From NCBI GenBank assembly GCA_028753945.1, contig JAPNXP010000011.1, positions 4,278,001 through 4,342,000 of the forward strand: a stretch of 64,000 nucleotides of DNA. The letters run 5' to 3'. This DNA comes from Hexactinellida sp. DTS-2022. Its lineage: Eukaryota > Porifera > Hexactinellida. The notes beneath the pieces were generated by a model, which did not search any database, had not been told where the DNA came from, and worked only from the letters and a program-made list of their open reading frames with translations. This document shows, one piece after another, positions 3,491-39,385 of the stretch (the stretch's first letter is position 1; each line of letters starts with the position of its first letter). Both the position numbers and the translations under genes were made by a program.

Positions 3491-3620
3491 TTAAATCCGG
3501 CCCTGGTCCCATTTGTTCCTATGTGTCCCTGAAGAGGGTTAGGAGATGGACTCTTCTCTGCTCGAGAGAGAGCATCAACCTATCTTTTGATTGGTTTATT
3601 GCTGTGGCTACGGGTTCGAC
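3491..3620 (-). pseudogene. TRIM coiled-coil fragment (block A)
   Basis: On the minus strand this reads the same short stretch (LSLEQRRVHLLTLFRDT then a stop) that begins the TRIM/NHL pseudogene at 18,420. It ends at a CAGGGCCGGATT terminus of a hAT-like element. The same fragment is in block B near 13,100-13,230. It is a piece of a TRIM/NHL locus carried in the duplicated unit, in the opposite orientation to the parent. Confidence 0.55.
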
Positions 3621-5011
3621 GAGTGGCACTGGGATTGGCTCAGGGAATTGCGTCGCCTTTTCAGATTATTAGAATTTTATTTGTGTTGGATGGATTATTT
3701 TAATTAGTTAGTTTCAGTTCTAAAATGCATCCTATTTATAGTTTCCATTGTATTACTAATCTCAATGCAAACTGCTTAGCGACCCAGTTAATATAAATAT
3801 AATCAAATGTCTCAGTGGTTTGTGTCGTGTCTCCTCTTCTATGAACTCTGATAGTGTGACACAATATTGGTTGTTGTCTGTTCGTGATGTTACAGTTCTG
3901 TGTACTTATGTCATACACGAGATTATTTGTAGATGTGAGGTGTTGTTGTTAATGTTTACTCGTTATATTATAGTTCACTGAAATTTCACTTTAGATGATG
4001 AATATGTGATGATATGTGTTATTTTCTCGTTCTATTTTTATCCTGGACACATTTTTCGAAAAGATAAAAATGTTTCTTAAAAAGTGTTCGGGCGGACAGT
4101 CTCTAAGCCTGGACGTTTTTTCCCGAAAATTTTATCACTAATCTGTCCCCTTGACGCTAATCACAGTCACTTGCGTGGATTTCATAGACTAGATGAATAC
4201 ACATTAGGGCATTTACACATGATAATGTAATCTTTATATGGAAGTGAAGTAAGAGATTGTGTTACCGGGAATTATATATGTTTTAACTTTCTATTCAATT
4301 CGAGCATACATCCATTGTCCAGTTCTCATTACTGAGTATTACAATGGATATAATTCGCTTTGGCTGTATTATACGTTCTCAAGTTATTAAGTACCATAGG
4401 CGTAAATTACCTGTGGAAATTTTTAATTCAATTTCGAACGTCAGCCAGTGGCAGTGGCGGCGCGAAGGAGGGGCCCCAAATCAATAAATTTCTACCAGAA
4501 TTTATACTTCTTGCATTTTAGAAGGGTGAAAATCCTCTTAATCACTTTTCCAGTAATCTGTAATCTGAACTCTCATGGAAAAATAAATTTCGTCGAATTA
4601 GCGAATGATCGTTTCTAGAGGACGAAAGTCTAACTGACCCATCCAGATCTAAATATATAAATGTACTTGTCTTGTGAGATATTTTGTTTAAATTTGGATA
4701 GTAGGCATTAAGATTTGAGTTTACAATTAAGTAAGTGCTGCTTATCTTTAAATTTATGCTGATAATTCTCAGGCCAAAAACAATCAAAACTAAATGTAAG
4801 GAACAATTATATTACACATCTGACCAGTTTAATTATACATACATATCTATTAGGTTGAGATCCTAAATAAAGTACTACGATTATACACAAAATAAAATAA
4901 TATACGTATATGTAGAGACATAAAATAGGCATCTATTTGTATCCTTTCAGGAGAGGCTGTTGTATATTATCGTAGTTGAATCTGTACACTAAATGGCGGC
5001 TGCGATACCTC

Positions 5012-15702: not shown

Positions 15703-16043
15703 GCTTTGGTTTGTATTGAGTGAGCTATGATCTATTCTAAATTAATCAAATGGGTTTAGCAAGGATAATCTGGCTTAATATAAATACAATTTACTATTCA
15801 AATGACCTCAATCTTTATTATATTTAGCAGTAAGCAGAAGTGGTTAATTTATCCTCTGATATAATGTGAAATCAAAAGTGGAGAGAAACAGGATAAACTC
15901 GTATTTTCTTGAACTTATGTTGAATATAAATTGGTGACCAATTAATATTAAATATTTCAAAAATACAAAGAAATGGGAAATATTTTAAGGTAATAATTAG
16001 GAAAGCTAAACAGCATGTTGTATCATAATTGACAGGTATTTAA
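15703..16043. other. Block B flank before the inserted element
   Basis: AT-rich, homologous to 6,103-6,450 of block A. It ends in the TTAA at 16,040-16,043, the target of the insertion. No gene seen. Confidence 0.6.
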
Positions 16044-16703
16044 GGCCACTGTTAATGATAATATTGTTTCAGCTCCACACGAAGTCTATCTAAGGATGCG
16101 GGCGGGCGGCATCTCATTATCATTATCTCATTATTTGATGACGACATAGTTAATAATTATATGAACAAATAGTCTAATTTGTGAGTGCTTATTGATAAAA
16201 AGTTGCAATCGTTGGGTAATAATGCTTATGTCATGAGATGAGGCCACGCACTAGTATGAAGACTAGGCGCTCTAGCTGGCCCCAACTTATGGGGATGTCA
16301 AGTCAGTGGTTTCGTCCTATCTCAAGGACTCATCAGGAGGGTAACCCTCGACCACTCTTATTGCACCTCGCGCAAACCTAATACCGCTACTAGGTTACCA
16401 GTCGTACTGCAGGACTTATGCTAGCAGAGTTACTCATGCAGTATCCCGTACTTCCACCTACCGCCTTTCCCATGGACAGTACTCCTGAGGATCAGTCACA
16501 CTTGTCATAGTTCCTGATTTTGTTAATGGCTAATTATGGCTATTTTAGAGTGTGGTAATAGTTAATCCTACCATAAAATTGGCAACGAACAGTGACCTTA
16601 ATTTGAAATGTAGGTGTAATAATGGGAACAATGACAATATTCGTGCGGGTGTGATATCTGACGCGGGCGGTCGAGCTGAAACAAGATTCCAACCAACAGT
16701 GGC
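16044..16703. mobile_element. 660-bp TIR element carrying a hammerhead ribozyme
   Basis: Blocks A, C and D read ...GGTATTTAATTAGCGG without interruption. Block B has 660 extra bases between TTAA (16,040-16,043) and TTGA (16,704-16,707), consistent with a 4-bp TTAA duplication with one later change, or a 3-bp TAA duplication if the ends are set one base over. The ends are inverted repeats of about 32 bp with some mismatches: GGCCACTGTT...TTGTTTCAGCTC against AGCCACTGTT...TTGTTTCAGCTC. No ORF of useful size, so it is non-autonomous. TTAA and TAA targets suggest piggyBac-like or PIF/Harbinger-like mobilisation respectively; I cannot decide. The outer parts are AT-rich. The centre (about 16,245-16,500) is GC-richer, rich in short hairpins, and holds the ribozyme. 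Confidence 0.8.
16305..16356 (-). ncRNA. Type III hammerhead ribozyme
   Basis: Read on the minus strand from 16,356 down. Stem III 5' strand AGTGGT, then C17 (complement of 16,350), giving the GUC cleavage triplet; stem I GAGGG-TTA-CCCTC; core box CTGATGA; stem II GTCC-TTGAGATA-GGAC; core GAA; stem III 3' strand ACCACT. Every invariant core position of the family (CUGAUGA, GAA, A15.1-U16.1, G10.1-C11.1, H17) is present, and all stems are perfectly paired (6, 5 and 4 bp). Cleavage is expected after C17, between 16,350 and 16,349. The open helix is stem III, which defines the type III topology. Possible loop I/loop II contacts cannot be judged from sequence alone. Downstream in the same RNA are small hairpins (CCCC-ATAAGTT-GGGG; CTAGT/ACTAG). 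Confidence 0.9.
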
Positions 16704-26207: not shown

Positions 26208-26236
26208 ATATCTCATCGTAGCTGAGTCTTTTCATT

Positions 26237-27073
26237 AGTATTGTATAAAAACCTAGTATATTAGGGACCAATTAACAAGTGGTACAATTATCGCCTTACC
26301 TGCCACCTCCCCATAATTCCGTACTCTACCTGGTATATTGCAACATAATCATCAGATACAAACACAACCTAGTTTCATCTAGTTATTACATCTTTGTGAA
26401 ATGTAAACGCTCTTTCTGGCCTGATTCTTCAATGCTTCAAGGTACAATCTCTGCAGCGACATAATCAGCTAGGAATGTTTGCAGACAATCGACTACTGCA
26501 ACTTCTCATTCCTATTGGCCCTAACACCGTGATTAGCAGATATGTAGTCGTGGTGGGGGCTGGATATTGCCAGAAATGTTAGAAGAGAGTAAACTAAAGA
26601 AGTACGACACTCATTACCGCATCAATATAAAATTCACATTTCCTAATAATGGGCCGGATTGAAGAAATCAATCTGTGCGGTAGACTCTACAGCATTAACC
26701 AGTGCCTTAACGAGAGCTAATTTACGAAGTTCTTATACCAATTCGGATGTCTATTGCATTGGGAGAACACGCAAATATGGTCAGACCATGTTTAATACCT
26801 ATGTTTTCAACTTTCCTAAACCATTGATATACAAATCAAAGTCGATTAAATTGGACTGCAATTTCGACTCCAGAATTCCCAACCCAAAACTATAAAACAT
26901 ATGGAACTATAAAGGATATATAAAAATAGAAATATACACCACTTATCTATGTAATTAGCTCAAAAGAGCCCGAAAATTATTCAATTCAATTACTATCGAA
27001 TATAGCGATTAATAAATACTACGTTATCTGACCCTAGTGCCTAAATACCTTCTAACCTATAGATTCAGTAAAA
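26237..27073. other. Intergenic segment of block C
   Basis: Reverse complement of 2,358-3,206. It contains the plus-strand copy of the 78-codon ORF (26,659-26,895). No other gene seen. Confidence 0.6.
26659..26895 (+). CDS. Conserved 78-codon ORF of unknown status (block C copy)
   Basis: Differs from the block A copy by one visible residue (GRTRKYG for GRTHKYG). Upstream an open reading (LLIPIGPNTVISRYVVVVGA..., about 26,500-26,580) could be part of the same degraded or spliced gene. Confidence 0.25.
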   Translation: MKKSICAVDSTALTSALTRANLRSSYTNSDVYCIGRTRKYGQTMFNTYVFNFPKPLIYKSKSIKLDCNFDSRIPNPKL

Positions 27074-30000
27074 TTATTTAGTTTCGTAGTCAATGAAGAT
27101 CTGGAGAATTGCATCATTAACTATTTCACTGCCTACCTTCTGAAAATCCCCACAAAGTTCTCCAAGTTTGGATTTCATTGTCTCTTCAAACTCAGGTAGA
27201 CTTCTTCCAGTATTTATTCCATGATACTGAACTGCAAACTTTTGAAAATTACTCCATACATCTCTTTCCCAATTAAATTGGCACAGATTCCCATAATTGC
27301 AACAGCAACAGTTTCCTTCATTGCTATGGGGGCTATGTGATTCATAATTAGGAAAATTCCCATGTGGGGGAGCATCATATATGTGAATAATTACATTTCT
27401 TGTACCCAAGATATTTTCCCAATTGCAGCGAGTGACTGCAGTTGCTAACCCGTCTAACACAGCTTCTGGGTAATCCCCTCCTCCATCTGCTTCAACTCCC
27501 TCAAGAAATGTTTGTATGGTCTCGTGTTGTGGAGTAAATTGGTTGTTATTTGGAAACATTTCAATGACATTCGTATCGCAGTGGTCACGATAGATAACAA
27601 CTTTAAATTCAGATTCGGTTCCTCTCTCCTTGTACTTGCTGATGAACTGACCAACATAAATTCGAGCTTTTTCAATCTCCCTATACATGGAACCAGTCCC
27701 ATCAATAACAAAGCAAATGTTATATTTAACTGAAAATTGAGTTTTGTAAACATCTTCAACTGAAGTATAAGGAATGTATTTAATTTCTGTTCCAAATTTA
27801 TCCCAGTAATATTTTAAGATTCCTTTCCCGAATTTGTTCCAAATATTTTTCATTTTATCTCTATTGTTCCGTTGCTTCGCCAAGTATTTCTCATCTTTGG
27901 GGAGGGTCCAGTCCCATTCGTTGCCACACTTCTCTTTAAACTCACCCCAATTCATGGTCTGTCCGGGGATTAGAACTCTAGTGTTATCCGTATAGTCGTC
28001 ACACATGAACAGTACTGCAGTTTTGTCTTTATCACTATTCCACACTGTACCACCCATAGAGCAAATTTGGTGACCTGTTTTAATCTGACAATTTCAATCG
28101 TTTGGATGAAGCTCCCTTTCACAGAGTTTACCACAACTGGGACATTGGGAGGGACAACCGATGACATCTTTTTCGTATTCCTCTTTTATTGGTTTTATAA
28201 TTTCTGCAAACTTATCTCTTTCCAGGTTGTACTCGTACTCATTTAAAACTGAAATAAAGTTTGTAATGTATTCATGGATATTGAATATGTTCTCGGAATG
28301 AAACATCTTGGTATTTGATAATTTCTTGAAGGTATCTTCATCCAGGACATTATATGGGTCAATTTGTTTTTCACATAATATGTAAGTATCAGATAATTTA
28401 ATCTTCACATCATCTACCGAAAAGATTTTGCTGAAGAAGGATTCAAATTCCTGTGAGCTCACTGTTGGATCCAAGTACATCCGTAAATAAGTTAGCATAG
28501 CCTTGAAAGGACTTTCTCTGCAAACTTCTCTAGATTTTCCCATTTCAGCTAACTCAAAGTTACTATCTGAGTCTAATGCCTTCCTCTCGCTGCAATCGCT
28601 CCCAGATTTAGAGCACCTCTCTAAAAGATTTTCAATTAACTTTTCGAGTACCTTTTTGAGAGTTGCTACTTGTTTTGTGAATTTATCCTTCATCTCTTTT
28701 GCAGTTACTGTGTAGATTTCATCTTCTAATAAAGTCCATTGTTTTTGGAACATATTCCTTATTAATTCGTTTCTATTACAGATGAATTGAACAACGAAGT
28801 TGCTGCTGTTTAATATTTCTGAATCTCCGACTGAAGTACTGAGTCCTTTTGTTATGACATCATCTGCTGACAGGAAAATGCTCTCATGTGATAATCAGAG
28901 ACGGATTAAGGGTATATTGGGCCCCGGGCGGACATCAACCACGGGCATCAGGAGTTTCTTTGAGGACACCACAGAATATTATCCTCAGGATCCTTACTAT
29001 TGTTTCTACAATCTTCATTACCTTTTGCTGTCCAACGATTTCGTAAGTCTTCTGATATATCGTCCCACAACCCAATGTTGTTCACAAGTTGTATTTCTTT
29101 CTGAGTTAAAAGCGTGTTGCTCTTCTACAACCTCTGGAAATTGATATTCTGACTCGATAAAACTGGAGTCACATACTGCAACTATTCGTTTGAATTATAT
29201 ACAAATGGATCGCCAAGAGGTACAAAGGAAGATGTTGAAGTAGAAAGCTCATCGTCTTCGGCTGACAATTCTTGGGATTGTGATTGTAAGTTATAGAATG
29301 TGTCTAGTTTAGGAAGTTTAGACGTTTCTTGTTTAGCTGGTTTTCGCGAAGGTGACTTTCTTTTCTTTTAGTTACCTGCGACTTGGGAATAGAATGCGTT
29401 ACTGAGAAGTGGAGAATATATTTAGACTCTAAAAATTCAATGAAAAAGTAGATCAGGACTTGTTACTTTTAAGGTGTGCTGTCTATTAATTGTATCATTG
29501 TTATTGGTTCACTGTTATAAATTAATTAACCTTATCATGTTATTGCTTCACTACTCAAACACTTCATGCAACACATTTCTCAATACAAATATTGCGCTTT
29601 GTATTGGGCCCCCTTTAGGCTCGGGCCCCGGGCGACCGCCCCATCCGACCCCCCCTTTATCCACCACTGGTGATAATCCCCCTCTTCGCATTTTGAAATA
29701 ATTTTCAATAGTTGGCTGTTGACCTGTTACCACTCCTCGCTCTACGCCACCCAAGAAGACTTTGGCAAATTTCTTTGAGATATTTTGATCACTATCTCTC
29801 ATTTTGTTACGATCCCACTTACCTCTGACCATTTTTCTGTTTTCAATTTTTTGCAAAAAGTACTGGAGCAAGTTTAGCTTTTTAGTTTCTGTCTTTGATT
29901 TGTTTTCTAATCGCTTTTTAGTTTTTGTTTTTCCAGAGAGACGCGAAGGCAATCGCGAAGACAAACACTGAGATGGTTCTCTCTGCTGTATTACTCAATC

Positions 30001-30763
30001 TCGCTTCAATATATCCGATTTCATAATTAACAATCTTTATAATGAGAATAGAGGAAGTTAACTATTTCTTTCACAGTTCCTTGAGAAATATTGGGATCTC
30101 TGTAGATTAATTCATGAACAGATGTAAATATTTTGTCACGAATTTATCCCATGTACTTAACGTGGTGTTTTCTGGAGCTTTCAGTAGAGAAGCTAATAAT
30201 AGTATTTGGTTGCTCTTGTCCATTTTTCCCCAGATTATGTCAGGGTGATTGATATAACCTGAGCAATATTTGACAAGGGGATGGCATTCCTTAGGGATCC
30301 ACTTGCTAATTTTTAGATCAAATCTAGAAAATACATAGAGGCGTTTAACTTCACAATATTCAAATAACGAGTATTCTCCCAAACACTCATATTTTCCTTC
30401 TCCCGAAAAAGATACCATATCTTTGATCGGGGCATTATTCCAATAGCAAGGATAGATGAACTGATCTGTACCTTTAAAAGATTTATGATCATTCTGAAAT
30501 CTTGAAAACAATTCAGAATGAATAGAATTAATTATATCCCCCATTATGAAGTTTAAATTCCAAAATAGTTCATATACTGTCGACATATTTTCCATAGTTC
30601 TCGACTCCATTTTGAATATGGAGTACAAGTCTTCAAATATCTCATCACGCTCGTATTCTTCTTCTTTTCGATCTTCGGCACCAAAGGATTCTATCCAAGT
30701 TTCTTCAAAAGCCTTTTTTTGATCTTCAACATATAACCGGAGTAATACGCAATGAATAGTCAT
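27074..30763 (-). pseudogene. vWA-domain protein, copy C, pseudogene split by a hAT insertion
   Basis: Starts at ATG 30,763 as in copy B, with TCG (Ser) where copy B has its early stop. Lesions: a one-base loss near 30,137; a one-base gain near 29,945; a 774-bp hAT insertion (28,896-29,669); a TGA at 28,094-28,096 just before the second half of the Cys-rich module (GAT-GGA in copy A is GAT-TGA here). The last 327 codons with the complete vWA domain and MIDAS are intact. The lesions differ from those of copy B, so B and C decayed independently. Confidence 0.85.
28896..29669. mobile_element. 774-bp hAT element with transposase N-terminal remnant
   Basis: GTGATAAT stands on both sides (28,888-28,895 and 29,670-29,677) and occurs once in copies A and B. 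Ends are CAGAGACGGATTAAGGG and CAGTGGTGGATAAAGGG read inward, followed by GC-rich subterminal blocks with GGGCCCCGGGCG on both sides. On the minus strand broken frames read KKRKSPSRKPAKQETSKLP and VNNIGLWDDISEDLRN, the kind of N-terminus seen in hAT transposases related to ZMYM-type proteins. No catalytic region is present, so it is an internally deleted, non-autonomous copy. Confidence 0.85.
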
Positions 30764-30847
30764 TGTAGGTACTGTTTTTGTGGAACTGTTTGTTCGTCTT
30801 ATCCGGAAATTCGTATTAACCCTGTTCGTACTAACGAGATTCTACTG
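30735..30847. mobile_element. Half MITE at the start of vWA copy C
   Basis: Reverse complement of 8,950-9,062. The start codon at 30,763 lies within it. Confidence 0.65.
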
Positions 30848-31159
30848 TAGTATTTATATTTGTTAAAATTTTATCACAATCTAATTACATTATAAAATTC
30901 AGCTTATATCGAAGTCATTTTCCGATGTCAATGGTCTTATGTGAGTACCCATAGATAAATGATTAGTAGTGCATTTATTTTCCTCAATTAAATTAGGATC
31001 TAAATTATTCTAACTAGGTAGGGCTAGGTACTATAAATCGGCCAACACCTTTCAATATAGAAACCTGTTTTTCTAAGAGTGAATTTTGATGTTAAAGAAT
31101 ATCCTTTCCAGTGCCTGAAGATTACAATAGAAAAGGGGTTGGTCTATATTAATTAAATG

Positions 31160-31265
31160 CAGTCAACTCCGCTTAATAGAGTCACCTCGGGACCAGGTTG
31201 CTTTGATCCGATTAAGCGGAGAAATAAGTTAACCGGTGGCTCTATTAATTAAGCAGAGCTGACTG
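31160..31265. mobile_element. MITE, CAGTCAGCTC family (block C)
   Basis: Same insertion as 8,532-8,637, in inverted orientation. Absent from block D. Confidence 0.75.
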
Positions 31266-31307
31266 TAATTCCATAATTCAATATATTATATTTGGAATTT
31301 CAGCTGT

Positions 31308-32725
31308 ATGGAAGTTAAGAAAGATTTCATCACAAAGCTTCTCCTCAACTTCGTCATTCTTATAATCATAACAATATTCCTTGCAAGCACGCTAGTATCT
31401 ATATAGATTGATGCTACAGTATATCAATATAGACTAGGGCGCCTCGCTTGCTAGGTCGCTTTTCGGCAGAACCCAACCACACACCAACCGTTATGCGGTT
31501 GGTGCATGGTTTATACACTTCTAACAATGATTATAAAGCGTAAATAGGCCTAAATAGTCAAATTTAAAAATGTGAAATTTTAGTGATTACGTCATCATGC
31601 GATAATGAGTTAGCATAGTGGCGATCTGGTGTGACCAAAGTGTCCGCATCATTAAAGTGCATGTTCTATTAAATTTTCAGATATTTATCTCTTAGAGTGC
31701 GAGAATTATGTGCGATTAAGTGACTTTTCAGGGTTCTCGAAATGTGACAATGACGTCATAACTTGTCGAGGATGAGAAATTTTGAGTGAAAACCTAAAAT
31801 TGTTGACGGGTGCCAAAAGTCACCTCTATATGCCAAAAATCACATTTGGAAACCGGAAACCTAATGCTTTTTCAATTTTTATAATTGGAGCCTCTCAGAC
31901 TCAAGTTAAAAACCCCGAGATCGCGACGTTCCAGTCCTTATCTAAAGGAGTCTATGGTACAAACCATAGAGTTTGTACAAAACCAGAAACTAAAAGGTCG
32001 GTTATTTTAGCAAACGAGTTATGGGGTCAATATTTTGGTAAACTATTTACGTGACAAGCAATGATTCTCAATTGCAGCCTTTCTCAACTCTAATCTTTCC
32101 TTTTGAAAAGGAATCTCGTGAACAACTCTGGAAGAAAACAATGTATGCATTTCGTCATTTGTACACAGAGTACGGATATAGTTATGACTGGTTTATGAAG
32201 GCAGATGATGATTCGCTTGTAGTTACTGAGAATTTGTACAAATTTCTGTCTAATTACAATTCCTCAGAGCCACATTATTTCGGCCGAATTTGGAAGTTAA
32301 ACAATCAAATTTATTGCTCTGGAGGAGGTGGTTACGTGGTTAGTAGAGCAGCGCTTAAAATATTGATAGAAGGTTTAGATGATAAATGCAAGGATCAAAT
32401 GAATGGAATTGTCGAGGATTACGAGTTCGGACGGTGTCTAAATAGAATGGGGATTTATCCTGAAGACAGTAGAGATGAAAATGGGCGTTTTCGTTTCAAC
32501 TGCTTTTCATTCCGTTACCATTATCAAACACCCAAAGGACAACTGCCTGATTGGACTTACGAGATGTCTAAATACCCAGTGATGGAAGGCGTAGATTGCT
32601 GTGCGGAAGATGTAATATCATTTCACTACATGAATGAGAAGGAAAACATCGAACTGAATGATCTGCTTCACGAAGAACCGGTAAATCTTCTGAAGGGACC
32701 GAAACTTGACAAATTCAAGCCTTAA
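31308..32725 (+). pseudogene. C1GALT1-like galactosyltransferase, copy C, pseudogene
   Basis: Start MEVKKDFITKLLLNF (31,308) is kept. The anchor/stem coding DNA is replaced by the same hairpin-bearing segment as in copy A (about 31,391-31,975), and the same one-base loss follows WGQYF near 32,036. The catalytic part from 32,051 is open (ADDDSL where D has VDDDSF). It cannot make a membrane-anchored enzyme as read. Confidence 0.85.
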
Positions 32726-33699
32726 CATTAGTGCATATTATATGTAGGTGTAAAGTTTGTATGCTATATTTCAATAATTGTAATAGTTATGCGTTTAATA
32801 AGATGCTCAGAGGCATAAAATTACTATTTTAAGTGGGTTATTCTATAAACAGGTATTTTAGTTCCTCAGATGTGATTCGATATGAGTATATTTAACACAA
32901 TGTTGTGTGTATATTTTCGTTTGTATGTTCCGAATTGATTGAAGAGAATGGAAGGTTTAGGCCTGATTTTTGGCACTCAACAACGAGTTTAAGTTTTGGA
33001 CCAGAATTCCTTCTCACGTTTTAGAGCGTGAAGATTAACTTAATCGCTTCTTTAACTTTTGCTGATAAATATCTTTCTAGGTTTTTAATATTGTAAGATC
33101 AAATGCACGCTTTCAATTTTAGCAATGTCAAAATTTCAGCTTTTACCCAGGATTCCACACTTTTGGGTCACTAATACATAGTTATTCATGAATTAAACGT
33201 ACTACTTTTTTGTTTTAATTGAGTTGTATCACTCTATTGTTTACTTCAATTTATTGCAATAACTAAGAATGTATTACATCTGTTTAACTTCTATTTCGAA
33301 GTTATATTATAAATTTACCATTATGGAGCTTCTTGCTAATAATCCGCTAATTAAATACCTGTCAATTATGATACAACATGCTGTTTAGCTTTCCTATTTA
33401 TTACTTTGAAATAACTCCCATTTCATTGTATATATGAAATATCTAATATTATTTGGCCGTGTGCATTCCTGAATAAATAAGATAATACGAGATGTACAAA
33501 CATAATTATCCTGTTTATCTCCACTTTTGATTTCAAATTATATCAGAGGATTAATTAACCACTTCTGCTTACTGCTAAATATAATAAAGTTTGAGGTCAT
33601 TTGAATAGTAAATTGTATTTATATTAAGCCAGATTATCCTTGCTAAACCCATATGATTAATTTAGAATAGATCATAGCTCACTCAATACAAACCAAAGC
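32726..33699. other. Intergenic DNA between galactosyltransferase and membrane gene, block C
   Basis: AT-rich, homologous to 6,103-7,071 and 36,830-37,814. The TTAA site near 33,350 is empty. No gene seen. The two genes lie head to tail on the same strand, about 1 kb apart. Confidence 0.6.
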
Positions 33700-33707
33700 T
33701 ATATAAG
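33700..33707 (+). promoter_or_regulatory. TATA-like box of membrane gene copy C
   Basis: TATATAAG, 31 bp before the ATG at 33,738; position and sequence conserved in all four copies. Confidence 0.5.
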
Positions 33708-33737
33708 TTGGGGTTGTATAACTCACTATAATAATCC

Positions 33738-34880
33738 ATGCATACAGTTAGTCAAGAATACATTCAAACTGTAATAGAGTTTATTACAATTGCGAATTAC
33801 ACAACTACCATCTGTTTGAATTTAGGCTGGCTGGGATATTCCATTAGATATCTATGGTTGTATGTGTTAAGTTACAGAGTTTGTAAGCGAGCACCCGATC
33901 TCCATCCTATCTACAGTGATGTACAGTTCCTGTCTCGTCAGAGGAAACTCTATAACATTAAAACTCACATCGTTAAGTATGTTCTAATAATATTGTATCT
34001 TTGCGTTGAGATCAGCACTTTTGTTTGGTTGGGAATATATATTCTGCTTTTTCCTCACTCGGATGCAAAGTTCTATGCAAAACGAAACAAAATTCAAGCC
34101 CTATATACAAACTGCTATATTCATCATCATTTGGCACACTTGTACTTTAACTTTATATACATCATGATGATTAACGTAGAATTTTTGTTTATTTTGCTTC
34201 AATTTTCCTTGATGTGCATACTAACCCGCTATCTAGCCGCTAGGTATCTCAATCATTCATTCAAACGGACCCTGTTCAGCTATTTAATATGGCTAGTTGT
34301 ACAGAGTATAATAATCGCTTTATGTTCCACCATCTACACTTACATCTTCTCGTTACTGCTACTCCCACTTCTCCTTATTGCGGACTGGTTTGTTCTGCTA
34401 AGAGACAGCCGGATACTCTCTCGTGTGCTGAGATCAAATTTGAGAGAGATTAAGTTGCATTCTACAAATAAAGTTCTGTACAAGGAGCAATTTACTGCCT
34501 ATAAATGCTACCGAATCTTCCATAAATTTATACTTCTTTCACTTTTCCTTCTCATCGCTGTTATAACACTCTTCTGTTTTCTGCAATTATTTGCACTGCT
34601 TTTCGACTCATTCTGCTTGCTAGACTACACTTACGGATTCAAGTATATCCCACTCCCGAATATTTCTCTCTCGCATTATCTCAAGTTCGATGGTCATCAC
34701 GATAGAACAATAGATTTAGTTGCATTCGCTATCTATTCCTTTTCAACCAGTCTCCCACTATTTTGTGCAACTGTAGCTCCACTCATAGTAGCCTGTGTTA
34801 AGAGGTATCGCAGCCGCCATTTAGTGTACAGATTCAACTACGATAATATCCAACAGCCTCTCCTGAGAGGATACAAATAG
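33738..34880 (+). CDS. Multi-pass membrane protein of unknown family, copy C, intact
   Basis: 380 aa. I see about seven hydrophobic segments: roughly residues 12-45, 82-110, 137-168, 183-205, 205-222, 266-297 and 330-358. A charged loop between segments 5 and 6 (RDSRILSRVLRSNLREIKLH) and basic stretches after segments 1 and 3 suggest cytosolic loops. Conserved Cys and several Tyr/Phe-rich faces. The tail ends VYRFNYDNIQQPLLRGYK. Size and topology would fit a seven-helix receptor, but I see no DRY or NPxxY motif and cannot assign a family. Its partner in every block is the galactosyltransferase upstream, with no evidence that they act together. Intact here and in copy D only. Confidence 0.75.
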   Translation: MHTVSQEYIQTVIEFITIANYTTTICLNLGWLGYSIRYLWLYVLSYRVCKRAPDLHPIYSDVQFLSRQRKLYNIKTHIVKYVLIILYLCVEISTFVWLGIYILLFPHSDAKFYAKRNKIQALYTNCYIHHHLAHLYFNFIYIMMINVEFLFILLQFSLMCILTRYLAARYLNHSFKRTLFSYLIWLVVQSIIIALCSTIYTYIFSLLLLPLLLIADWFVLLRDSRILSRVLRSNLREIKLHSTNKVLYKEQFTAYKCYRIFHKFILLSLFLLIAVITLFCFLQLFALLFDSFCLLDYTYGFKYIPLPNISLSHYLKFDGHHDRTIDLVAFAIYSFSTSLPLFCATVAPLIVACVKRYRSRHLVYRFNYDNIQQPLLRGYK

Positions 34881-35646
34881 ATGCCTATTTTATGTCTCTA
34901 AATATACGTATATTATTTTATTTTGTATATAGTCGTAGTGCCTTATTTAGTATCTTAGCCTGAGATATGCATGTATAATTTAACTGGTCAGATGTGTAAT
35001 ATAATTCTTGCTTGTATTCAGTTTTGAGTTTTTGGCCTGAGAATTATCAGCATAAAATTAAAAGATAAGCAGTATTTTAAACCTCAAGTCTTAATGTCTA
35101 CTATCCAAAAATTAAAAGAAATATATACAATGTCCCGGGATTTGTCTTGAATAAGTTGGCAGGTATGAGCAGGTCAACCGAGCCTCGTAGGTCCAGAATG
35201 CTATTTACGTTAAGTGACCAGAATTTATACTTCTTGCATTCTAGAAGGGTGAAAATCCTCTTAATCACTTTTCCAGTCATCTGTAATCTGAACTCTCAAT
35301 GGAAAAATAAATTTCGTCGAATTAGCGAATGATCGTTTCTAGAGGACCAAAGTCTAACTGACCCATCCAGATCTAAATATAATGTACTGGTCTTGTGAGA
35401 TATTTTGTTTAAAATTTGGATAGTAGGCATTAAGATTTGAGGTTTACAATTAAGTAAATGCTGCTTATCTTTAAATTTATGCTGATAATTCTCAGGTTAA
35501 AAACAACAAAAATGATAACAAGCAACAATTTACTACACATCTGACCAGTTTAATTATACATGCATATCTCTCAGGTTGAGATCCTAAATAAGGTACTACG
35601 ACTATACACAAAATAAATAATATTTGTAGAGACATAAAATAGGCCT
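34881..35646. other. Centre of the C/D palindrome
   Basis: 34,881-35,107 is the 3' flank of membrane gene C; 35,418-35,646 is the matching flank of copy D. Between them are about 110 bp of unrelated DNA (35,108-35,217) and about 200 bp (35,218-35,417) that match block A near 4,494-4,690 and belong to block D only. No gene seen. Confidence 0.7.
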
Positions 35647-36792
35647 CTATTTGTATCCTCTCAGGAGAGGCTGTTGGATATTATCGTAGTTGAATCTGTA
35701 CACTAAATGGCGGCTGCGATACCTCTTAACACAGGCTACTATGAGTGGAGCTATAGTTGCACAAAATAGAGGGAAACTGTTTGAAATGGAATAGATAGCG
35801 ACTGCAACTAAATTTATTGTTCTATCGTGACCTTCTAACTTGAGAAAGTAATGCGAGAGAGAAATATTCGGGTATGGGATATACTTGAATCCGTAAGTGT
35901 ACTCTAGCAAGCAGAATGAGTAGAAAAGCAGTGCAAATAGATGTAGAAAACAGAAGAGTGTTATAACAACAATGAGAAGGAAAAGTGAAAGAAGTAGAAA
36001 TTTATGGAAGATTCGGTAGCATTTGTAGGCAGTAAATTGCTCCTTGTACAGAACTTTATTTGTAGAATGCAACTTAATCTCTCTCAAATTTGATCTCAGC
36101 ACACGAGAGAGTATCCGGCTGTCTCTTAGCAGAACAAACCAGTCCGCAATAAGGAGAATTGGGAGTAGCAGTAACGAGAAGATGTAAGTGTAGATGGTGG
36201 AACATAAAGCGATTATTATACTCTGTACAGCTAGCCATATTAAATAGCTGAACAGAGTCCGTTTGAATGAATGATTGAGATACCTAGCGGCTAGATAGCG
36301 GGTTAGTATGCACAGCAGGGAAAATTGAAGCAAAATAAAGAAAAATTCTACGTTAATCATTATGATGTATATAAAGTTAGAGTACAAGTGTGCCAAGTGT
36401 GGATGAATATAGCAGTTTGTATATAGGGCTTGAATTTGGTTTCGTTTTGCTTTGAACTTTGCATCCGAGTGAGGAAAAAGCAGAATATATATTCCCAACC
36501 AAACAAAAGTGCTGATCTCAACGCAAAGATACAATATTATTAGAACATACTTAACAATGTGAGTGTTCATGTTATAGAGTTTCCTCTGACGAGACAGGAA
36601 CTGTACATCGCTGTAGATAGGATGGAGATCGGGTGCTCGCTTACAAACTCTGTATCTTAACACATACAACCATAGATATCTAATGGAATATCCCAACCAG
36701 CCTAAATTTAAACACAAGGTAGTTGTGTAATTCGCAATTGTAATAAACTCTATTACAGTTTGAATTATATGTTCTTGACTAACTGGATGCAT
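35647..36792 (-). CDS. Multi-pass membrane protein of unknown family, copy D, intact
   Basis: 381 aa, the same architecture as copy C with scattered substitutions (for example HYFLKLEGHDRTINLVAVAIYS where C has HYLKFDGHHDRTIDLVAFAIYS). It keeps the last membrane segment and the LLRGYK tail that copies A and B lost. The mix of substitutions without frame damage is compatible with selection on C and D; a dN/dS count would decide. Confidence 0.75.
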   Translation of the reverse strand: MHPVSQEHIIQTVIEFITIANYTTTLCLNLGWLGYSIRYLWLYVLRYRVCKRAPDLHPIYSDVQFLSRQRKLYNMNTHIVKYVLIILYLCVEISTFVWLGIYILLFPHSDAKFKAKRNQIQALYTNCYIHPHLAHLYSNFIYIIMINVEFFFILLQFSLLCILTRYLAARYLNHSFKRTLFSYLIWLAVQSIIIALCSTIYTYIFSLLLLPILLIADWFVLLRDSRILSRVLRSNLREIKLHSTNKVLYKEQFTAYKCYRIFHKFLLLSLFLLIVVITLFCFLHLFALLFYSFCLLEYTYGFKYIPYPNISLSHYFLKLEGHDRTINLVAVAIYSISNSFPLFCATIAPLIVACVKRYRSRHLVYRFNYDNIQQPLLRGYK

Positions 36793-36821
36793 GGAAGATT
36801 ATAGTGAGTTATACAAACCCA

Positions 36822-36829
36822 CTTATATA
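36822..36829 (-). promoter_or_regulatory. TATA-like box of membrane gene copy D
   Basis: TATATAAG on the minus strand, 30 bp before the ATG at 36,792. Confidence 0.45.
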
Positions 36830-37814
36830 GCTTTGGTTTGTATTGAGTGAGCTATATGATCTATTCTAAATTAATCAAATGGGTTTAGCAAGGATAATCT
36901 GGCTTAATTTAAATACAGTTTACTATTCAAATGACCTCGATCTTTATTATATTTAGCAGTAAGCAGAAGTGGTTAATTAATTAATCCTCTGATATATAAT
37001 GTGAAATCAAAAGTGGAGAGAAACAGGATAATTATGTTTGTACATCTCGTATTATCTTATTTATTCAGGAATGCACACGGCCAAATAATATTAGATATTT
37101 CATATATACAATGAAATGGGAGTTATTTCAAAGTAATAAATAGGAAAGCTAAACAGCATGTTGTATCATAATTGACAGGTATTTAATTAGCGGATTATTA
37201 GCAAGAAGCTCCATAATGGTAAATTTATAATATAACTTCGAAATAGAAGTTAAACAGATGTAATACATTCTTAGTTATTGCAATAAATTGAAGTAAACAA
37301 TAGAGTGATACAACTCAATTAAAACAAAAAAGTAGTACGTTTAACTCATGAATAACTATGTATTATAGACTCAAAAGTGTGGAAACCTGGGTAAAAGCTG
37401 AAATTTTGACATTGCTAAAATTGAATGCGTTCATTTGATCTTACAATATTAAAAACCTAGAAAGATAATATCAGCAAAAGTTAAAGAAGCGATTAAGTTA
37501 ATCTTCACGCTCTAAAAATGTGAGAAGTAGGAATTTTGGTCCAAAAACTTAAACTCGTTGTGAGTGCCGAAAATCAGGCCTAAACCTTCCATTCTCTTCA
37601 ATCAATTCGGAACATACAAACGAAAATATACACACAACATTGTGTTAAATATACTCATATCGAATCACATCTGAGGAACTAAAATACCTGTTTATAGAAT
37701 AACCCACTTAAAATAGTAATTTTATGCCTCTGAGCATCTTATTAAACGCATAACTATTACAATTATTGAAATATAGCATACAAACTTTACACCTACATAT
37801 AATATGCACTAATG
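36830..37814. other. Intergenic DNA between membrane gene and galactosyltransferase, block D
   Basis: AT-rich, homologous to 6,103-7,071 and 32,726-33,699. The TTAA target site is empty near 37,187. No gene seen. Confidence 0.6.
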
Positions 37815-38807
37815 TTAAGGCTTGAATTTGTCAAGTTTCGGTCCCTTCAGAAGATTTACGGGTTCTTCATGAAGCAGATCATTCAGTTCGATGTTTTCCT
37901 TCTCATTCATGTAGTGAAATGATATTACGTCTTCCGCACAGCAATCTACGCCTTCCATCACTGGGTATTTAGACATCTCGTAAGTCCAATCAGGCAGTTG
38001 TCCTTTGGGTGTTTGATAATGGTATCGGAATGAAAAGCAGTTGAAACGAAAACGCCCATTTTCATCTCTACTGTCTTCAGGATAAATTCCCATCCTATTT
38101 AGACACCGTCCGAATTCGTAATCCTCGACAATTCCATTCATTTGATCCTTGCATTTACCATCTAAACCTTCTATCAATATTTTAAGCGCTGCTCTACTAA
38201 CCACGTAACCACCTCCTCCGGAGCAATAAATTTGATTGTTTAGCTTCCAAATTCGGCCGAAATAATGAGGTTCTGAGGAATTGTAATTAGACAGAAATTT
38301 GTATAAATTCTCAGTGACTACAAACGAATCATCATCTACCTTCATAAACCAGTCATAACTATCTCCGTACTCTGTGTACAAATGACGAAATGCAAACATT
38401 GTTTTCTTCCAGAGTTGTTCACGAGATTCCTTTTCAACAGGAAAGATTAGAGTTGAGAAAGACTGCAATTGAGAATCATTGCTTGTCACGTAAATAGTTT
38501 TATCAAAATATTGACCCCATAACTCGTTTGCTAAAATAACCGACCTCTTAGTTTCTGGGTGTGTGCAAACCCAACATATTATTCGTGTTAGGTTCGTGTT
38601 TATTTGTTGTGTATGATTCTGTATTGTATTGTTCTGATGAAAATATGATTCATATTGTAATGAATTGGAAATTCTGTGAAATGCAATTTCGGAAAAATTA
38701 TAGTCAATTTTTGAAATAAAAAAGTAATGCAAAAGGAATATTGTTATGATTATAAGAATGAAGAAGTTGAGGAGAAGCTTTGTGATGAAATCTTTCTTAA
38801 CTTCCAT
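37815..38807 (-). CDS. C1GALT1: Core 1 beta-1,3-galactosyltransferase-like enzyme (GT31), intact
   Basis: 330 aa, the only unbroken copy. Short cytosolic tail, membrane anchor at about residues 10-31, then a stem with N-glycosylation sites (NHT, NLT). The catalytic domain starts near ICWVCTHPETKR (77-88). VDDDSF (157-162) is the metal-binding DDD; YFGRIWK (182-188), CSGGGGYVVSRAALK (195-209), EDYEFGRC (228-235), GIYPEDSRDE (240-249) and CCAEDVISFHY (289-299) follow in the order and spacing of C1GALT1. That family adds galactose to GalNAc-Ser/Thr in the Golgi (core 1 O-glycan). It is somewhat shorter than the human enzyme at the C-terminus. Substrate is inferred from family; a related beta-3-galactosyltransferase is possible. 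Confidence 0.85.
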   Translation of the reverse strand: MEVKKDFITKLLLNFFILIIITIFLLHYFFISKIDYNFSEIAFHRISNSLQYESYFHQNNTIQNHTQQINTNLTRIICWVCTHPETKRSVILANELWGQYFDKTIYVTSNDSQLQSFSTLIFPVEKESREQLWKKTMFAFRHLYTEYGDSYDWFMKVDDDSFVVTENLYKFLSNYNSSEPHYFGRIWKLNNQIYCSGGGGYVVSRAALKILIEGLDGKCKDQMNGIVEDYEFGRCLNRMGIYPEDSRDENGRFRFNCFSFRYHYQTPKGQLPDWTYEMSKYPVMEGVDCCAEDVISFHYMNEKENIELNDLLHEEPVNLLKGPKLDKFKP

Positions 38808-39163
38808 ACAGCTGAAATTCCAAATATAATATATTGAATTATGGAATTACTTAATTAATTATTAATAGGCCGACACCTTTTCTAATGTAATTTTCAGGCA
38901 CTGGAAAGGACATTCTTTAACATCAAAATTCACTCTTAGAAAAACAGGTTTCTATATTGAAAAGGTGTTGGCCGATTTATAGTAACTACGCCCTAGTTAG
39001 AAATTAGAATCATTTAGATACTAATAATTAAGGGAAATAAGTACACTACTAATATTTTATCTATGTGTACTCACACAATACCATTGACATCGGAAAGGAC
39101 TTGGATATAAGCGGAATTTTATGATGTGTTAGATTGTGATAAAAATTTTAATAAATATAAATA
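38808..39163. other. Block D right flank
   Basis: AT-rich, homologous to the region upstream of galactosyltransferase A (8,490-8,945) minus the MITE. No gene seen. Confidence 0.6.
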
Positions 39164-39385
39164 CAGTCAGGTCTGCTTGAACAGTTTTTCGCCTGTTTAA
39201 TATGAAGATTTTTTATTATGAACAAGCCCTATGATCCCATATTAACATAAATAGGGTTTGTATTAATTAACTCTATTTAATTAGATTGTGAATCTAATCT
39301 CATAATCTAATCTCTTATTATCAATTCTCTCTATTATAACACAATATTTAGTCCCTTGAATGTTCACAATAAAAGAACCTGACTG
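39164..39385. mobile_element. MITE, CAGTCAGGTCTGCTT family, copy 1
   Basis: CAGTCAGGTCTGCTTGAACA at one end and GAACCTGACTG at the other, TA-flanked. Internal phrases (TATGAACAAGCCCTATG, CATAGGGTTTGTATTA, GGTCCCTTGAATGTTCA) recur in 45,084-45,235. It marks the exact end of block D. Confidence 0.75.

Follow-up and report, generated by a model that had tools for sequence, protein, structure and literature searches.

A type III hammerhead ribozyme in a probable LTR retrozyme of a hexactinellid sponge, with a hairpin at the LTR end as candidate primer

Introduction

What kind of element carries a complete type III hammerhead ribozyme in an animal genome, and how could such an element begin its reverse transcription? 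The question is raised by a 64,000-nt stretch of DNA from Hexactinellida sp. DTS-2022 (contig JAPNXP010000011.1, positions 4,278,001 to 4,342,000), in the following referred to as the window. An initial annotation, made from the letters of this stretch, had reported a ribozyme of this type on the minus strand, placed it inside a TIR DNA element, regarded a type III form in such an element as unusual and suggested a circular-RNA or retrozyme-like step.

Type III hammerheads are a feature of LTR retrozymes in plants. According to the accessed parts of the respective publications, these elements carry the ribozyme in LTRs of ~300-400 bp, are flanked by 4-bp target site duplications (TSDs) and possess a polypurine tract (PPT), a PBS for tRNA-Met and ends resembling those of Ty3/gypsy elements (Cervera et al. 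2016, PMC4918200; PMC7761336). Here we describe the element around the ribozyme of the window, its copies in the genome, and a hairpin at its LTR end that may act as primer.

Results

A hammerhead nested in an LTR and in a MITE

The window was searched against Rfam using cmscan. Positions 16304-16357 of the minus strand match Hammerhead_3 (RF00008) with 63.9 bits (E 5.7e-12; gathering cut-off 48.5 bits) over 54 of the 54 model positions, and this is the sole Rfam match of gathering level in the 64 kb. Read directly from the sequence, stem III consists of AGUGG/CCACU and a closing U-A pair, stem I of GAGGG-UUA-CCCUC and stem II of GUCC/GGAC. The core comprises CUGAUGA, GAAA and the GUC cleavage triplet. 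Stems, core and cleavage site had thus been given correctly in the initial annotation, and the cut is expected between the bases opposite 16350 and 16349. The helices are compact, as in the Rfam consensus. By both the covariance model and direct reading, the complete type III hammerhead motif at this locus is confirmed.

The genome (112.4 Mb, 18 contigs) contains at least 68 matches to RF00008, 64 of them over the cut-off, whereby both counts are lower bounds from 68 scored of 12319 first-look candidates. In line with the initial annotation, this number speaks against a product of chance. A ribozyme pattern search of viral_contigs found none. That the DNA belongs to an animal is supported by Smad MH2 domains with five matches over the cut-off; to our knowledge the MH2 domain is specific to metazoans. 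The Wnt profile gave 0 candidates in the genome, with no control able to score.

The ribozyme is located in a unit of 272 bp (16229-16500, minus strand) that has the form of a solo LTR, running in ribozyme orientation from TGTGACTGATCC to CATCTCATGACA with TG...CA ends. Its borders are set by homology to other copies, which stops at both ends, and by the empty site. On the plus strand the unit is preceded by CTTA (16225-16228) and followed by CTTG (16501-16504), a TSD with one mismatch that was delimited using empty MITE copies. The host is a MITE-like repeat (16044-16703) of ~385 bp without the LTR, recognised by its genome copies, its inverted repeat and alignment breaks. The terminal inverted repeat has 34 bp at 79%. 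In a DNA search the query parts near 15-208 and 482-684 adjoin each other in the genome copies, and the repeat is absent from the paralogous cassettes in the window, where the alignments break at 16043/16704.

All eight fetched empty MITE copies show CTTG at the insertion site; considering loci on either strand, the empty-site sequence is AATAATGCTTGT(C/T)ATAG in seven of them and AATAATGCTTGATATAG in the eighth (L068). Because these copies lack the unit at the site, it represents a separate insertion in the MITE and not a part of it. The earlier placement inside a TIR DNA element therefore stands with respect to the nesting, but the ribozyme belongs to an LTR unit of its own: a mere piece of the MITE is ruled out by the empty sites together with the target duplication of the unit. 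Folding of the window solo LTR alone resulted in a z of 0.0 against 100 shuffles.

Another candidate for a transposon, with the 1-kb inverted repeat 13090-14103/17515-18527 as TIR, was rejected, as both a third copy at 3494-4506 and the self-comparison place this repeat in a duplicated cassette. This cassette is one of several large direct and inverted duplications in the window, the others being 1-6453/9584-16043 and 26232-39164, which are mostly 92-99% identical and carry copies of a VWA-domain gene, of a Fringe/galactosyltransferase-like gene and of a reading frame of ~350-380 aa. The GC content of the window is 33.6%, that of the first 66 loci 38.8%. For the glass sponge Oopsacas, the accessed parts of the literature give 36% GC, an existing TGF-beta pathway and absence of Wnt, so that the GC, Smad and Wnt results obtained here would fit a glass sponge.

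Copies across the genome

The 68 ribozyme copies were fetched with their flanks and compared. Members of the main family are homologous over ~140-200 bp preceding the ribozyme and ~130 bp following it, with sharp limits on both sides. In ribozyme orientation the units start with TGTGACG or TGTTATG/A and end with CTCATAACA or a variant of it. Both ends were recognised in 46 units, 22 of which are bordered by exact 4-bp TSDs (shuffled pairing: mean 0.89, maximum 5 in 2000) and a further 8 by a match in three of the four positions. In 16 units at most two of the four positions match. Thirteen of these border a hairpin or an internal piece, so that no TSD is to be expected there; H11, H24 and H46 lack a TSD and border neither. 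The count is based on 97 examined units, 51 without a recognised end, in a set with overlaps (H04 is also contained in L121). The window copy is among the 51 left out, as its start TGTGACT falls outside the pattern.

A complete element of 834 bp is present at C15:3147950-3148890 (L092). It is flanked by TACT on either side and consists of two LTRs of 330 bp, each with an intact hammerhead core, and an internal segment of 174 bp that includes the hairpin described below, ends with the PPT AAAAAGGGAAGGTGA and is judged to be non-coding from its length only. Among the loci read, L092 is the only whole LTR-internal-LTR copy with two full LTRs outside an array. H59/L055 has the TSD CTAC/CTAC and a shortened 5' LTR. 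At L035 (C1:7627723-7629910), five LTRs in both orientations form an array with a single outer TSD, CTAT/CTAT, which apparently integrated as one molecule. Full-length LTRs measure ~325-330 bp, and many copies are solo LTRs. A DNA search with the L035 LTR and internal segment listed 66 places; the 48 longer ones were compared, without the shorter pieces and a 116-bp one, and 28 of the 48 overlap none of the 68 ribozyme matches.

Taken together, we interpret the window unit as a solo LTR that derives from a non-autonomous, retrozyme-type LTR retrotransposon, with a probability of roughly 70%. The LTR unit, its TSDs and the full-length copies elsewhere in the genome also bear out the former suggestion that the hammerhead resides in a mobile element with a retrozyme-like logic.

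The hammerhead elements described for animals are non-LTR retrozymes and Penelope-like elements, and the present copies could be thought to belong to one of them. Both however carry type I ribozymes, the latter in pseudo-LTRs, and the ribozyme here is of type III. The type I hammerhead (RF00163) had 0 matches in the genome among 73 scored of 14702 candidates, with no control able to score. Metazoan retrozymes, as far as the accessed parts of PMC7229834 describe them, are tandem repeats of low GC without LTR, PBS or PPT and, when TSDs are present, with longer ones. They resemble the element described here in the hammerhead, the small circle-sized unit and the animal host, but are contradicted by its LTRs and 4-bp TSDs and differ from its unit GC of 52-54%. 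We thus regard such an assignment as hardly credible.

Some further observations concern the variety of the copies. A single LTR contains as many as three copies of the motif GCAGTACG (in the L092 slice at offsets 55, 98 and 142), the window copy one, and L099 shows a tandem expansion around it; possibly it is a repeated RNA module or a protein site. Nine divergent copies (H05, H08, H25, H49, H58 and H65-H68, i.e. L005, L008, L025, L045, L054 and L061-L064) have little in common with the main family beyond the hammerhead, and their element ends are not placeable from the flanks. Perhaps they represent further families. Eight ribozyme copies are clustered at C1:13.00-13.91 Mb (L049-L053 and L058-L060), several of them in segmental duplications, whereby L049 and L052 are 100% identical over 3 kb.

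Ends shared with Ty3/gypsy elements

A pattern combining PPT and LTR start has 32 matches in the genome, compared to 8 for the reversed pattern. Five of the 32 are ribozyme elements. Among the other 27 matches, 12 have an integrase domain 820-881 bp upstream of them on the same strand, taking the best 150 of 706 integrase candidates into account; the chance of such a spacing is ~0.0013 per match. Within 6 kb around the 68 ribozymes, none of these best 150 of 706 is present, and hence it is the shared ends that point to gypsy elements as helpers. The ribozyme elements and the gypsy elements have in common the sequences of PPT, LTR start, LTR end and the first PBS bases.

In the piece at L128, RNase H is followed by a zinc-binding domain and the integrase core, which is the order of gypsy elements, with Ty3 Gag-Pol as best PDB match (1.1e-29), and judged by these domains it is Ty3/gypsy. 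Where both ends are clear the gypsy LTRs have ~150-190 bp, and no hammerhead was seen in them by eye. In the gypsy element L105 the 5' LTR ends with AACA and is followed by TAAGTAC, the same as in L092; compared by eye, ACA followed by TAATAAC in L115 is the same as in the hairpins of L035 and L104.

In three gypsy families, stretches of the LTR (12, 11 and 14 nt) could pair with the PBS of the same element, one of these matches (TATTTGTATTT) being of low complexity. By script, a complementarity of 8 nt was found for L114 and none for L106, L112 and L115, where the LTR ends are uncertain or no internal region follows. The 5' LTR positions are guesses for 12 elements (L107-L118): a 5' LTR was recognised in none of L109, L111, L113, L117 and L118, and the LTR ends are uncertain in L112, L114 and L115.

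According to the accessed parts of PMC4600332 and PMC6317226, members of the Tf1/sushi group of Ty3/gypsy have a PBS complementary to their own RNA and use a 5' segment of the mRNA as primer. The 11-14-nt LTR/PBS matches in three families here would be the signature of self-priming of this type, and the likeness to this clade is one of complementarity. The gypsy elements thus appear, from their sequence, to use the 5' leader as primer.

A hairpin at the LTR end

Directly downstream of its LTR end and the bases following it, the ribozyme element has an arm that is perfectly complementary to them over 14-16 bp. Several variants of this hairpin are present: CGTAACA-TAAGTACT/AGTACTTA-TGTTACG, CATAACA-TAATAAC/GTTATTA-TGTTATG, CATGACA-TAATATCTC/GAGATATTA-TGTCATG and CATCACA-TTATAACCC/GGGTTATAA-TGTGATG, besides others. 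Hence the hairpin covaries, its pairing being preserved across differing sequences. The PBS, reading TAAGTAC, TAATAAC and the like, is situated within the hairpin. TGG, the primer site for the 3' end of a tRNA, follows in 0 of 70 recognised LTR ends with an upstream ribozyme, some copies being counted in two loci.

This arrangement suggests that the hairpin could be a primer in cis, whereby the 3' end for copying the LTR would come from a nick in its downstream arm. Such priming would suit a circle made by the ribozyme, because the leader on which the gypsy relatives seem to depend is gone in it. In contrast to the Tf1/sushi group, at least as described in the accessed parts of the publications above, the role of primer would here fall to the arm that adjoins the PBS on its downstream side. 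That this animal LTR retrozyme starts reverse transcription from the hairpin formed by its own LTR end, the PBS and the adjoining arm is a proposal to which we assign even odds.

Inverted LTR pairs

Three insertions consist of two LTRs in inverted orientation around the complete hairpin, with TSDs at their outer ends, namely L066 (CGTA), L119/L126 (ATAC) and L043 (TGAA). The L035 array contains the same palindromic junction internally, and L120 represents a truncated case. A different situation is found in H04/L121, where two LTRs are joined via a piece of ~45 nt and not at the hairpin; the simple form could not be fitted there. Since the 4-bp duplications are located at the outermost ends, each palindrome entered as a single molecule.

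L066 and the L035 junction have arms of 100% identity, and one L066 arm is 99.6% identical to L017. The arms of L119 show 89% identity, compared to 76% to the longest-matching other locus in the comparison. The arms of L043 are ~90-92% alike, and the match of one of them to L038 (92%) is at least as close.

The palindromes may have arisen at the DNA level, by fold-back replication or paired insertion, and not from a hairpin primer. The relation of the L043 arms to another copy is in favour of this view, as is the number of palindromes read, which comprises three simple ones with both outer ends and one junction in an array. Against it, the full hairpin with its loop is central in L066, L119/L126, L043 and the L035 junction, and the outermost duplications indicate entry as one molecule. 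An origin at the DNA level is in our opinion doubtful, albeit worth keeping in mind.

The palindromic copies with their TSDs would also agree with a ribozyme-bearing DNA transposon or MITE that is moved by a transposase and uses the inverted LTR ends as TIRs, as would the short inverted ends TGTTATGAG/CTCATAACA. Ginger elements, to which such an element might be similar, show TG...CA ends together with TSDs of 4 bp. A DNA transposon is however argued against by the direct pairs of LTRs, which enclose an internal segment with a PPT at its end, and by the PPT and LTR boxes common to the gypsy elements. We consider this explanation very improbable and retain the LTR retrotransposon.

Retention of the ribozyme

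The stems were compared in 44 distinct sequences out of the 68 ribozymes, whereby the following counts are sequences and not independent events. In stem III, changes on both sides with pairing kept are found for the pairs 3-52 and 4-51 in four sequences each and for 2-53 in two; in stem II the same holds for the pair 32-41 in two sequences. Non-standard pairs in stem III are most numerous at the outermost position 2-53 (25 of 44), followed by 3-52 (7), 4-51 (5) and 5-50 (4). The constancy of the core among the 44 sequences is a product of ascertainment. Less biased, yet not unbiased given that the queries contained the ribozyme, are the units from the DNA-similarity loci, in which the catalytic core is kept in 26 of 31 (30 by pattern and L125). 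L125, which the pattern did not pick up, carries an insertion close to stem I. This set includes the minus-strand unit of L121, which is H04 and already part of the RF00008 set, and the pattern tests the core but not every stem.

These data bear on whether the unit is just the LTR of an ordinary small non-autonomous (TRIM-like) element that uses a linear RNA as template, the hammerhead being a passenger or serving a regulatory role for the host. The LTR, the PPT and the 4-bp TSD can be explained without a circle, and that many copies are solo LTRs is in agreement with such an element. However, the ribozyme core is kept across copies with strongly differing flanks while the stems change on both sides, and it persists in most units of the DNA-similarity set despite the bias of the queries mentioned above. 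Moreover, in place of a leader-type self-primer as in the gypsy elements there is a primer site in a hairpin, which a linear RNA could do without. A TRIM-like element with an idle ribozyme thus seems unlikely to us, and the reading as a retrozyme is preferred.

The unit RNA was folded as a circle. The z values against 60 dinucleotide shuffles each are -5.6 for L092 (504 nt) and -8.4 for L035 (486 nt). A consensus fold of 20 LTRs, chosen from 44 distinct LTRs to be below 93% identity, has 42 pairs, nine of them with changes on both sides. As its covariation term is only -1.88, we put weight on the hammerhead and the primer hairpin and not on the rest of the LTR.

Discussion

Based on these findings we propose a cycle for the ribozyme element, in which cleavage, circular RNA and mobilisation are what we infer from its architecture. 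A full-length copy of the observed organisation would be transcribed, and cutting by both hammerheads would yield a unit RNA of 486-504 nt. By analogy to the retrozymes of plants and animals, this RNA would be closed to a circle, on which the enzymes of self-priming Ty3/gypsy elements may then act. The circle would have no 5' leader; instead, a nick in the arm of the covarying hairpin of LTR end and PBS could provide the primer. Copying for more than one round of the circle would lead to LTR-internal-LTR DNA without strand transfer. In a variant of this step, copying that runs out of the hairpin and then returns would generate palindromic LTR-hairpin-LTR DNA, which is the form of the insertions found. 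Finally, an integrase of the gypsy type would insert the DNA, and the 4-bp duplications seen at the copies would be made by it.

Compared to the accessed descriptions of plant LTR retrozymes (PMC4918200, PMC7761336), the element shares the type III hammerhead in the LTRs, a short non-coding internal region, the PPT and the 4-bp TSD, as well as solo LTRs, ends matching Ty3/gypsy and a self-paired unit RNA. In contrast, its host is an animal, the unit of 486-504 nt is smaller than the ~700 nt in plants, the PBS is part of a hairpin and not a tRNA-Met site, and palindromic copies are present. Because a tRNA primer site was looked for and not found at the LTR ends, we regard the ribozyme element as a variant and not as a plain member of the plant kind.

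Type III hammerheads as such have a precedent in animals. The accessed parts of PMC7936874 describe atypical ones, both from genomes of dipterans and from the delta-like RNAs of toad and termite; their helices are longer, and pseudoknots are present. These have the type III topology in common with the window ribozyme, but the helices of the latter are as compact as those of the Rfam consensus. In the accessed parts of the open-access literature searched, including PMC7936874, an LTR retrozyme in an animal was not found reported. New with respect to this literature is the plant-like LTR retrozyme architecture with a type III hammerhead in an animal, in which a hairpin is apparently the primer.

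A plant-like architecture in an animal would go back either to horizontal transfer or to a second, independent origin of the same design, and this question bears on the origin of viroid-like RNAs with type III hammerheads. If true, hairpin priming frees the element from tRNA and from the 5' end of the RNA. A circle made by the ribozyme could then serve an LTR retrotransposon as template, with no need for strand transfer and with the palindromic LTR-hairpin-LTR insertions as by-product. The hairpin primer would thereby give an answer to how an LTR element could begin reverse transcription on a circle that is devoid of the usual leader, and the palindromic insertions make this answer testable from sequence in other genomes.
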